From Bacillus sp. ISL-41 (GTDB taxonomy: Bacteria > Bacillota > Bacilli > Bacillales > Cytobacillaceae), in NCBI RefSeq assembly GCF_018613235.1, contig NZ_JAGGQP010000030.1:1-64000 (forward strand): a DNA stretch of 64,000 nucleotides. Direction: 5' to 3'. Both the position numbers and the translations under genes were made by a program. Below the pieces are notes generated by a model. It was not told where the DNA came from. It saw nothing but the letters and a program-made list of their open reading frames with translations, and did not search any database. The stretch's first letter is position 1; the number at the start of each line of letters is the position of its first letter. Shown here piece by piece: positions 5,873 through 55,475 of the stretch.

Positions 5873-6901
5873 ATGAAAGTAGATTTGTTTGATTTCCATT
5901 TACCTGAGGAACTGATTGCCCAGACTCCGCTTGAACAAAGAGCGGAAAGCAGGGTGATGGTCCTGAATAAAGAATCGGGCAATATAGAACATGATGTTTT
6001 CAAGAACATCAAAAGCCATCTGGAGCCGGGTGACTGCCTCGTCCTGAATGACACGAAAGTTCTTCCGGCAAGGCTTTTTGGCATGAAAGAGGACACGGGA
6101 GCTAAAGTTGAAGTCCTTCTCCTGAAGCAGCTTGAGGGGGATGAGTGGGAAACACTTGTGAAACCGGCAAAAAGAGTGAAGGAAGGCACGAAAATTATCT
6201 TTGGAGACGGCCTTTTGACAGCAGAATGCACCGGGGAAGCGGAACACGGCGGGAGGAATCTCAAGTTTACATATGAAGGCATCTTCTATGAAGTGCTGGA
6301 ACAGCTGGGTGAAATGCCGCTTCCACCTTATATAAAGGAGCAGCTGGAGGATAAGGACAGATACCAGACTGTGTTCGCAAGGGAAAGAGGTTCGGCGGCG
6401 GCACCGACTGCCGGGTTGCATTTTACCGAGGAACTGCTGGAAGAAATCAAGGAGATGGGCGTCCATATCGCCTTCATTACCCTTCATGTCGGGCTGGGAA
6501 CTTTCAGGCCTGTCAGCGTGGATTCGATTGAAGAACACGATATGCACTCTGAATTTTACCAGGTGACTGAAGGAACGGCCTTGCTGCTGAACACCGTTCG
6601 TGAGCAGGGCGGCAGGGTCATCACTGTTGGAACGACTTCGACACGTACCCTCGAGACGATTGCGACAGCCAATGATGGTAAGTTTGTCGCTGAAAATGGC
6701 TGGACAAACATCTTCATTTATCCTGGATATGAGTTTAAGGCGATCGATGGGATGATTACGAATTTCCACTTGCCAAAGTCGACATTGATTATGCTTGTAA
6801 GTGCCCTGGCTGGACGAGAAAATGTCCTTAATGCCTATAATAAAGCTGTAGAGGAAAGGTATCGCTTTTTCAGTTTCGGCGATGCGATGCTGATCTTATA
6901 G
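5873..6901 (+). CDS. queA: S-adenosylmethionine:tRNA ribosyltransferase-isomerase QueA
   Basis: The 342-residue protein transfers and isomerises the ribosyl moiety of SAM to preQ1 at tRNA position 34, giving epoxyqueuosine. Family motifs are visible: the N-terminal [29 protein letters not shown] near residue 60, [12 protein letters not shown] near 175-186, and the C-terminal [20 protein letters not shown]. The ATG is preceded by AGTAAGGGTGACAAC. It is followed at 60 bp by tgt, which performs the preceding pathway step. Confidence 0.96.
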
Positions 6902-11789: not shown

Positions 11790-11895
11790 ATTGGACATTT
11801 TGAGCGAGGTACCCCTGAGAAATGTCTAAAAAGAGGTCTTTAATAGACATTTTGAACAGATAACACCCTTGAAATGTCTATATCGGATAATGATA
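11790..11895. repeat. Two tandem palindromic units, period 52 bp (locus 1)
   Basis: GACATTTTGA starts at 11794 and again at 11846, exactly 52 bp apart. Each unit has the outward palindrome GACATTT...AAATGTC, and the junction reads AAATGTCTA...TAGACATTT. The units sit between comN and the secDF promoter. Sequence differs from the other 52-bp loci, but architecture is shared. Confidence 0.6.
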
Positions 11896-24307: not shown

Positions 24308-24596
24308 TAAAATGTTATATAGAAAACATACCGTTGATGGAGCATAGTAGCCAAGAAACAAGTGAAAAGAGAGGGAATGCCCTGGCTGAAAGCATTTCTG
24401 CACGATGACCTGGTGAATGAACACTCCGTAGGATTTTCTCTGAACATGGGCTGCCCCATCATTAGGAGGAGACGTAATCAGGCGTTAACTGTTAAAGAGG
24501 AAGTGCATTCAAGCGCTTCAATTAGGGTGGCACCACGGGAATTCAAAGCTCTCGTCCCTTGTTATTATAGCAAGGGATTGGGGGCTTTTTTGTATT
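24308..24596 (+). promoter_or_regulatory. T-box riboswitch leader of hisS-aspS, probable His (CAC) specifier
   Basis: The T-box sequence AGGGTGGCACCACG is at 24524-24537, followed by the antiterminator/terminator region. The terminator pairs AGCTCTCGTCCCTTG with CAAGGGATTGGGGGCT and ends in a T-run (24549-24595). Stem I lies around 24355-24435; the specifier-like loop reads GAACACTCC with CAC at 24422-24424, the histidine codon. Uncharged tRNA-His should stabilise the antiterminator and switch on both synthetase genes. The specifier call comes from motif context and has not been folded by program. Confidence 0.85.
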
Positions 24597-27869: not shown

Positions 27870-28066
27870 ATGAAGAGTCCTGATGTGTTCGTTGTTTAAC
27901 CTGAAGTTTTGACCTAACATCTATCCTTCGGGAGTTCGCGTTTCCGGGCCGCGTAAATGCCTCTGGCTAGAGGACTTACAGAAATCCGGAACAGGGCACC
28001 CACCTGCTGAGAGCGGGTTCAAGACGAAGGCAACCAACACGACGGCACGATTGGGACTCTTCCTAC
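27870..28066 (+). ncRNA. bsrA: 6S RNA (6S-1, bsrA type)
   Basis: The segment starts with GAGTCCTGATGTGTTCGTTG and ends with GATTGGGACTCTTCC, so the ends pair (GAGTCC with GGACTC) as in 6S RNA. The intervening sequence carries the expected large internal bubble region. The conserved location is right after aspS, as for B. subtilis bsrA. 6S RNA binds sigma-A RNA polymerase and lowers its use in stationary phase. The exact ends are inferred to within a few bases. Confidence 0.85.
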
Positions 28067-28106: not shown

Positions 28107-28197
28107 GATGCCTTAAAGATCATTCTTATAAAGGGATATTCGGGCATATACGAGACTAAATGTTAAAGGACAGCTTTTGTAATCTTGGTCTTCTTAT

Positions 28198-28460
28198 TGT
28201 CCGATAGAGCTCTTCTAACGGACACTTTTGGTGATTTTCTCCTTCAGTTTTTCCGATAGAGCCTTCTAACGGACACTTTTGGTGATTTTCTCCTTCAGTT
28301 TGTCCGATAGAGCTCTTCTAACGGACACTTTTGGTGATTTTCTCCTTCAGTTTGTCCGATAGAGCTCTTCTAACGGACACTTTTAAGGATTTACTCCTTC
28401 AGTTTTTCCGATAGAGCCTTCTAACGGCCACATTTCAGAATTTCCCGCTTCTGTTATCCG
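28198..28460. repeat. Five tandem palindromic units, period 51-52 bp (locus 2)
   Basis: CCGATAGAGC starts at 28201, 28253, 28304, 28356 and 28408. Each unit holds an inverted repeat (GTCCGATAGA / TCTAACGGAC) followed by a linker CACTTTTGGTGATTTTCTCC that is nearly identical between copies 1-3. Copies 4 and 5 drift. No unique spacers occur, so this is not CRISPR. It lies between the 6S terminator and the tcdA promoter. Confidence 0.85.
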
Positions 28461-28540
28461 AAAAAACTCTTATACTAGGCGTTCATTCAGTATATCGGCA
28501 CAGTCAGCGCTAATATATACTTTAATTCCTATAAAAATAC

Positions 28541-39939: not shown

Positions 39940-40184
39940 GATTAATAATTCGAAAAATGTAGAAGGAACGAGTATGTTATAGACCATCGTCAAGAGAGGG
40001 ATTCCCAGGCTGAAAGAATTCCCGGTGAAGGATAACAGAAGGCTATTCCGGAGTGCAGGCAAAACCTGCCGTAGCAGCTGCGTTAAAGCGTTTTTGAGAG
40101 ATGGGCGTGCGTTTTTGCGTCCATAATCAGGGTGGTACCGCGAGCAAGCTCTCGTCCCTGTCCAGGGATGAGGGCTTTTTTTGT
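39940..40184 (+). promoter_or_regulatory. T-box riboswitch leader of alaS (Ala specifier)
   Basis: The T-box AGGGTGGTACCGCG lies at 40129-40142. The terminator pairs GCTCTCGTCCCTG with CAGGGATGAGGGC (about 40149-40176) and ends in seven T residues. In stem I the specifier region reads CAGAAGGCTATTCCGG, with the alanine codon GCT at 40042-40044. Uncharged tRNA-Ala should favour read-through into alaS. Confidence 0.9.
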
Positions 40185-43988: not shown

Positions 43989-44035
43989 TCAATGGATCAC
44001 CTATTGGCCGTGAAAATAGAATATTCCTTGGAAAT

Positions 44036-44220
44036 TGCCGATAGAAGGGCTCTATCGACCAAACAGGGGGAAGAAGTACGTGGAAATGTCCGATAGAAGG
44101 GCTCTATCGGACAAACAGGGGGAAGAAGTACGTGGAAGTGTCTGATAGAAGGGCTCTATCGACCCAAATTGAGTGAAGAATCCCCGCGATGTGCCCGATA
44201 GATCAACTCCAATAATACAG
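44036..44220. repeat. Four tandem palindromic units, period 52-53 bp (locus 3)
   Basis: The core CCGATAGAAGGGCTCTATCG begins at 44038, 44090 and (as CTGATAGA) 44142; a degenerate fourth starts at 44195. Each core is a near-perfect palindrome separated by a conserved linker AAACAGGGGGAAGAAGTACG in the first two copies. The palindrome resembles that of locus 2, but the linker is unrelated. Confidence 0.85.
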
Positions 44221-55299: not shown

Positions 55300-55475
55300 T
55301 AGGCGCAGGTTCGGACAAAAACACAGCTGGAGCAGCCAGACTTGTCCGAAGTAGTCCCAGGTTCAGACAAAATCACATACCTACCCGCTAGTTTTGTCCT
55401 AAGTAGCCACAAGCTCGAACAAAATCACAGGGAATCAGCTAGTTTTGTCTGAAGCAGCAGCTCTGGTACATCTGA
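55300..55475. repeat. Three to four tandem palindromic units, period 52 bp (locus 4)
   Basis: CAGGTTCGG starts at 55306, CAGGTTCAG at 55358 and CAAGCTCGA at 55410, exactly 52 bp apart; a degraded fourth start is near 55458. Each unit has the inverted pair TTCGGACAA / TTGTCCGAA. Linker bases drift strongly. It fills the gap between mtnN and yrhC. Confidence 0.8.

Follow-up and report, generated by a model that had tools for sequence, protein, structure and literature searches.

Intergenic palindrome arrays with a common 52-bp period and mutually unrelated sequences in Bacillus sp. ISL-41 and related genomes

INTRODUCTION

What holds tandem palindromes to a single period when their sequences differ? 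The question is raised by an array near position 28198 of a 64,000-nucleotide stretch of Bacillus sp. ISL-41 (the window), in which the original prediction named four intergenic loci that repeat every 52 bp around palindromes related to TGTCC/GGACA. Families of repeats are usually defined by the sequence that their members share. In these arrays the spacing, not the sequence, is conserved, and a search based on sequence would therefore split them into about 20 small unrelated repeats and miss the phenomenon.

RESULTS

Four loci in the window share one unit anatomy

The array at 28198 was verified with TRF, and the R1 covariance model described below finds four strong units in it, spaced 51, 52 and 52 bp. 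The features of the window arrays are as follows.

28197..28435, + strand: subfamily A array of 27-bp palindromes and 25-bp linkers (TRF period 52, 4.6 copies)
28214, 28265, 28317 and 28369, + strand: units of the 28198 array matched by R1
28162..28208, + strand: decayed left half-unit of the 28198 array (weak R1 match, 15.2 bits, E 0.063)
28420..28465, + strand: decayed right half-unit of the 28198 array (weak R1 match, 15.8 bits, E 0.039)
44029..44202, − strand: second subfamily A array (TRF period 52, 2.6 copies at 44029-44164; R1 scores of 46.5, 46.1 and 17.1 bits)
11793..11879, no strand assigned: two-linker array with arms AAATGTC/GACATTT (27/25 geometry, score 17 of 20)
55313..55451, no strand assigned: array of a third arm family, TTCGGACA/TGTCCGAA (27/25 geometry, score 19 at 55313 and 13 at 55365)

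The 28198 array is flanked by aspS and then 6S RNA on one side and by a ThiF-family gene on the other, for which TcdA is the nearest model with a score under the TcdA cut-off. At gathering score, the Rfam matches in the window were two T-box leaders (24325-24562 and 39951-40162) and the 6S RNA (27874-28061), and no RNA family matched the arrays there.

At all four loci the unit consists of a 27-bp TGTCC/GGACA palindrome and a 25-bp linker. Scored against the pattern GGACA-25-TGTCC-17-GGACA-25-TGTCC (maximum score 20), the loci reached 17, 20, 17 and 19, and 27/25 was the top split at every one of them. A score of 17 was reached at six positions of the window and in none of 200 mononucleotide shuffles of it, which confirms the common 52-bp palindromic design. 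The accompanying claim that the linkers are unrelated fails for the pair 28198 and 44038, since BLAST of the first against the genome matched the second on the opposite strand (74% identity, E 4.8e-14). The arrays at 11794 and 55306 have other arms and are absent among the R1 matches listed.

The 28198 array belongs to a repeat family dispersed between genes

A BLAST search of G000, the Mesobacillus-like genome of origin, with the 28198 array returned 28 matches. The covariance model R1 has 47 columns (right arm, linker, left arm) and was built from 27 units of 23 loci, which it matches by construction; 23 of 36 G000 arrays fed the model and 13 did not. In G000, R1 gave at least 128 matches at E up to 1, at no fewer than 122 distinct places and in at least 36 arrays, and these counts are lower bounds from the best 150 of 2798 candidates. 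At most the best 150 candidates per genome were scored in the R1 searches, and at most the best 38 per genome in a search of 161 genomes. Among 86 R1 spacings in G000, 75 are 52 bp, four are 53 and three are 51, with 50, 54, 58 and 104 once each; 84 of the 86 are within 50-54 bp. A broad genome-wide spread of periods, as expected if the agreement among the window loci were chance, did not appear. The family comprises two arm subfamilies with common anatomy, A (TGTCCGATAG) and B (TGTCCGTCAT).

R1 has matches in 18 of 21 genomes of the genus and, under stricter filters, in 52 of 161 sampled genomes of the family, representing 12 of 25 genera. In six genomes that carry the labels of four other genera, the best 150 matches listed give 98 spacings below 520 bp, of which 90 equal a multiple of 52 and the other eight come within 2 bp of one. 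The exact A core was found in records of Mesobacillus boroniphilus, M. selenatarsenatis, Pseudoneobacillus rhizosphaerae, Cytobacillus depressus and Bacillus species and in one record labelled Chryseobacterium, and 19 of 21 stretches with this core carry a period-52 tandem array.

The period is common to palindromes of unrelated sequence

Periods were sampled in 20-kb stretches at regular positions, together with the window, for 464 kb of G000 and 800 kb of a second genome, G011 (1.26 Mb); the G000 stretches came from contigs that had appeared in hit lists, and the window itself contributes 2 of the 16 G000 arrays. Genes were called by codon-usage heuristics, and the repeat finder is biased towards arrays that contain few indels. 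The 16 intergenic arrays of period 25-150 in G000 have periods of 52 (twelve), 53 (two), 50 and 89, and the 36 in G011 have periods of 52 (26), 53 (four), 51 (two), 54, 40 (two) and 41. Altogether, 48 of 52 (46 of 50 with the window excluded) fall at 50-54 bp, a range chosen after the data had been seen, with a mean of 52.08.

Smaller samples of other genomes gave periods of 51, 52, 52, 53 and 27 in G039 (100 kb; a genome with no R1 match in the 161-genome search), 52 in G079 (100 kb), 52 and 146 in G065 (200 kb), 57 and 109 in G106 (200 kb) and 127 in G042 (100 kb). No intergenic array of period 25-150 was seen in 100 kb of G030, and the sampled 100 kb each of G030 and G042 held no 52-bp array. 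The G106 arrays (L265:1374-1729 and 6356-6654, with a TTTAATCAAACGTTTGATTA palindrome) are outside the 52-bp rule.

The sampled stretches of eight genomes, five of them with matches, yielded 54 arrays of period 50-54. These form 20 single-linkage clusters at 62% identity, the largest with 16 members and 13 of them singletons, and their median pairwise identity is 0.42, compared to 0.40 for shuffled units. A palindrome score of at least 7 was obtained for 37 of the 54, compared to 2.6% of shuffled units, and 17 score below 7. By simple word matches, which may misplace an array, the 33 G011 arrays were labelled TGACAGCTTT/AAACCTGTCA (10), TTCGGACA/TGTCCGAA (5), GTACCCTTAT/ATAAGGGTAC (5, with periods of 53-54), B (3), AAATGTC/GACATTT (3), GGTCACC (2), A (1) and other (4). 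The period is common to unrelated palindromes, as had been predicted from the diverged content of the window loci.

Could this be descent alone? The arrays may have a deeper common ancestry than identity reveals, as TGTC/GACA recurs in several families with the 27/25 geometry unchanged, and one old 52-bp array could have diverged in sequence while its length drifted little, without any ruler. Such drift is consistent with families that differ by a constant one bp up or down (53-54 for GTACCCTTAT, for example). We consider this origin improbable, given that most between-cluster identity is at the shuffled level, that some families lack TGTC and that a peak at 20-21 bp, described next, is separate.

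Intergenic periods cluster near whole helical turns

When arrays of period 10 and above are included, G000 and G011 have 78 intergenic arrays. Below 50, the periods are 12 (two), 15, 18 (three), 19 (three), 20 (three), 21 (13), 40 (two) and 41; from 50 upward they are 50, 51 (two), 52 (38), 53 (six), 54, 89 and 209. None of the 78 has a period of 22-39 or 42-49. In coding arrays (n = 23), 22 periods are multiples of three, as the reading frame would require, and none is 50-54. One stretch of tandem repeats within an open reading frame, with units of 45, 135 and 33 bp, is found at 25-423 of the window.

The DNA helix has 10.4-10.5 bp per turn, and 21 and 52 bp are close to two and five turns. 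The two peaks fit the earlier proposal that 52 bp represents about five helical turns, and the recurrence of 52 bp across unrelated sequences suggests that the spacing is set by something that reads the helix and not by a common sequence. Nine of the 78 arrays have periods of 12-19, which do not fit whole turns. The 20-21-bp arrays (16 of 78) constitute a second intergenic class, A+T-rich with words such as TTCGCTATA or TCGACCACAT, with the following examples.

L221:13269, L224:10899, L231:8597 and 16864, L235:4902, L237:161, L253:12802, L296:1068: 20-21-bp arrays

Array orientation follows the replication fork

To assign fork direction in G011, a match to NF001154 (PRK00149), which we take to be DnaA, at base 34 was treated as dnaA and the terminus was assumed to lie opposite; the NF001154 matches score under the curated cut-off although E is ∼1e-102. 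Of the 33 R1 arrays of G011, 29 carry the purine-rich linker on the strand that runs with the fork (two-sided binomial 1.1e-5). Sorted by gene context in the frame of the fork, the ratio of arrays with and against this rule is 13:3 where both neighbours run with the fork, 12:0 between convergent genes, 3:0 where both neighbours run against it (contexts checked by reading the ORFs) and 1:1 between divergent genes. Linker purine content is 0.69-0.90 in the 29 arrays that follow the rule and 0.23, 0.41, 0.50 and 0.55 in the four exceptions.

In the stretch sample, purine content exceeds 0.5 on the fork strand in 29 of 33 arrays, and in 25 of 29 outside A and B, families in which polarity was judged from purine content alone; all four arrays whose neighbouring genes both oppose the fork follow the fork. 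The p value of this polarity against background is only 0.006, since 67% of array-free gaps (n = 316; mean 0.521, sd 0.041) also exceed 0.5. The flanks of the R1 arrays average 0.51. With flanks and array-free gaps at 0.51-0.52 purine, a neutral leading-strand skew was rejected as the source of the purine linkers, and termination of neighbouring genes was rejected as the cause of orientation because the gene contexts do not fit it.

Among the matches listed for other genera, the rule is followed in 6 of 6 arrays in G079 (three of them near the assumed terminus), 3 of 3 in G106 and 3 of 3 in G065. By reading, with 150 of 219 matches listed, 18 arrays of G009 are with the rule and 3 against, and 11 and 2, respectively, in G007. 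The 28198 array is itself an exception. Its pyrimidine linker is on the + strand. Since the fork there is inferred to run along +, from the inverted orientation in which L001 and L015 align to G011 loci at ∼3.43-3.45 Mb, the array has the minority orientation; the 44038 array is in the majority orientation, with the purine linker running with the inferred fork.

Arrays occupy 9 of 45 convergent gaps of at least 100 bp, compared to 20 of 300 other gaps (Fisher p = 0.007), and 3 of 81 divergent gaps.

Fork polarity would also be expected of signals for a polar DNA translocase, such as KOPS or the SpoIIIE recognition sequences (SRS), which the available part of one study describes as built on GAGAAGGG (PMC5869595). 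Part of subfamily A has a loop, AGAAGGG, read with the fork, that can be set beside this motif. We find this reading barely credible: GAGAAGGG is missing among the enriched linker words listed, the loops vary and other families have other loops, and several species retain minority-orientation arrays at the window gap.

Sequence covariation points to duplex DNA

If the arrays acted as folded RNA, we would expect the pairing on one strand to be favoured. Across 270 distinct palindromes the outer TGTCC/GGACA is almost fixed and the inner pairs vary on both sides. Mismatches read on the pyrimidine strand comprise 94 G•T and 115 A•C, a balance that favours neither strand as a single-stranded fold, and selection for an RNA hairpin on one strand is unsupported. 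The two-sided covariation of the arms, together with the lack of a wobble-favoured strand, points to duplex DNA.

A role in RNA might lie instead in the transcribed pyrimidine-rich strand, which could serve as an array for Rho loading or termination and halt transcripts that are head-on or antisense. Linker composition and orientation do match the Bacillus subtilis Rut sites, which are rich in pyrimidines, poor in G and ∼80% antisense to genes in the accessible sections of PMC12350095, sections that describe neither tandem palindromes nor a fixed period. A Rut-like window is found on the pyrimidine strand of 24 of 33 arrays and on the other strand of 9 of 33, and an array hairpin of −16.5 kcal/mol is followed by CUUUU. 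However, on each strand 129 of 246 control windows are Rut-like by this test, a scan of two arrays for intrinsic terminators (stem-loop and T run) found no site, there is no G•U excess on the pyrimidine strand and the fixed period is left unexplained. We accordingly regard an RNA-level function as very doubtful.

Arrays keep their positions and change in unit number

The anatomy of the unit is nearly constant. In G011, a gap of 15 separates the two hexamers of the palindrome in 127 of 140 cases, and the linker is 25 in 136 of 151; 25 is the modal linker length at 33 of 36 loci in G000 and 30 of 32 in G011. Deviations in loop length and linker length do not compensate for each other. Linkers of 25 have 78% identity within a locus and 48% between loci, and a CRISPR array, in which unique spacers are expected, was rejected on this basis.

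Of the 36 G000 array loci, 30 have a flank match in G011, four a match of the array sequence only and two no match. The comparison covered 28 pairs; two contig-end loci with a match to one and the same G011 array were set aside. Linker identity is 80% between orthologues and 53% between paralogues, with orthologues higher in 27 of 28 pairs; the lone exception is the window locus. Unit number differs in 25 of the 28 pairs. Per substitution, alignable flanks have 0.107 indels and linkers 0.049, a twofold difference that is a weak sign of length constraint. Our impression from coordinates is that the arrays of G009 and G007 are located at places of G011 arrays. The flanks shared by G000 and G011 arrays speak against the suggestion that the family is now spreading by seeding palindromes, as do the searches for carriers: the exact A core had no match in viral contigs and the window array no BLAST match in plasmid or phage records, and carriage of subfamily A by mobile elements was rejected.

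The gap at the window locus, read across 21 genomes, holds from 0 to ∼14 units. It contains A in 11 genomes, B in G015, G016 and G008, and relics in G018 and G019; no units were seen in G010 and G017, and the gap was incomplete or not found in G001, G012 and G005. In G004 (L154), some 14 A units after the 6S RNA alternate two linker types and make a higher-order repeat of ∼105 bp. Long inserts that by eye resemble mobile elements are present in the gap after the 6S RNA in G009 (A; L145) and G005 (L148).

Changing unit number would be expected if the ruler lay in the making of arrays, that is, if an enzyme or a replication process duplicated ∼52 (or 21) bp at hairpins and the arrays were neutral or selfish. 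Fork polarity would then come from action on the exposed lagging-strand template, and the greater likeness of linkers within a locus and the avoidance of divergent gaps are consistent with it. Against such duplication, orthologous positions are kept and no enzyme was found. For Y1_Tnp (PF01797), R1, a model of A and B only, has no match within ∼1.5 kb of the 30 matches examined among 47 in the genus. Three genomes with 105, 28 and 89 R1 matches (G016, G019 and G020, respectively) have no PF01797 match, and Y1_Tnp is present in G010, G012 and G017, which have no R1 match. We consider duplication by a ruler unlikely, if less so than descent alone. Y1/RAYT mobility as the present mechanism was rejected on these data, as was membership of the REP/RAYT (REPtron) systems, in which units flank a transposase gene that is present where the repeats are abundant.

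DISCUSSION

We favor, at a little under even confidence and by analogy, the reading that the arrays are DNA-level, BIME-like docking arrays kept in helical phase for a putative dimeric or architectural protein, with no transposase link. Five turns of B-DNA would place every palindrome centre on the same face of the helix, and one or more such DNA-binding proteins could occupy successive units, with selection keeping the phase. Slippage or recombination would alter the number of units, those out of phase would be lost by selection, and the direction of the array would derive from the purine-rich strand running with the fork.

In favor of docking arrays we count the concentration of periods (48 of 52 at 50-54) across 20 clusters of which 37 of 54 arrays are palindromic, the peaks at 20-21 and 52, the fixed linker (136/151) and inner gap (127/140), the multiples of 52 in other genera (90/98), and the covariation of both arms with no wobble-favoured strand. 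Against them we count the 17 of 54 arrays below a palindrome score of 7, the 9 of 78 periods of 12-19, the missing compensation between loop and linker, an indel excess of flanks over linkers that is only twofold, the periods of 57 and 109 in G106 and the lack of 52-bp arrays in the sampled parts of G030 and G042. Enrichment between convergent genes counts against them as well, because pneumococcal repeats with the same enrichment are read by their authors as parasitic, according to the portion of that paper available (PMC3049150).

The nearest working analogue of the 52-bp arrays, without the transposase link, is BIME-2 of Escherichia coli. In the extracts available of PMC2817692, enterobacterial REP/BIME-2 elements lie between genes as tandem palindromes, regularly spaced and alternating in orientation, and are said to bind gyrase and to favour Rho-dependent termination. 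The 52-bp arrays are likewise tandem intergenic palindromes at regular spacing; they differ in having no adjacent Y1/RAYT gene seen, mutually unrelated families at one period, and fork polarity. The CGTC- and GTAG-tagged REP superfamilies are also short palindromes, and the CGTC type too occurs without a dedicated transposase; however, as far as the partial text of PMC3733652 goes, CGTC stems are 8-9 bp, loops 4-5 and clusters rare, whereas here stems are 10-11 bp and arrays are usual, and the word Firmicutes is absent from that text. Pneumococcal BOX, RUP and SPRITE elements resemble the arrays as Gram-positive intergenic repeats, with tandem boxB in BOX and enrichment between convergent genes. 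In the same portion of PMC3049150, however, their leading-strand share is 61-63% and mirrors coding bias, compared to 29 of 33 here, where contexts track the fork and not the genes. No description of the 52-bp arrays was found in titles and the starts of abstracts, a coverage that takes in few subscription papers.

Beyond any one protein, the ruler may be independent of sequence, with a machinery that, by selection, shaping or duplication, turns almost any palindrome between genes into a fork-oriented tandem array of whole turns (52 bp, and probably 21 bp). This generalisation is tentative, and we hold it with less confidence than the docking arrays themselves. Scaled up from 33 arrays in 800 kb, a genome would hold roughly 200 of the 52-bp class. 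Should the arrays have helical phase in common, they would be a natural bait for a protein of Bacillaceae that organises the chromosome or acts on its topology, and their polarity links them to replication. Both properties, period and polarity, are measurable in any genome, which makes the idea directly testable. Arrays typical of Bacillaceae are also found in a record titled Chryseobacterium sp. ISL-80 (L117, L119, L128 and L129), a title that may be a mislabel.
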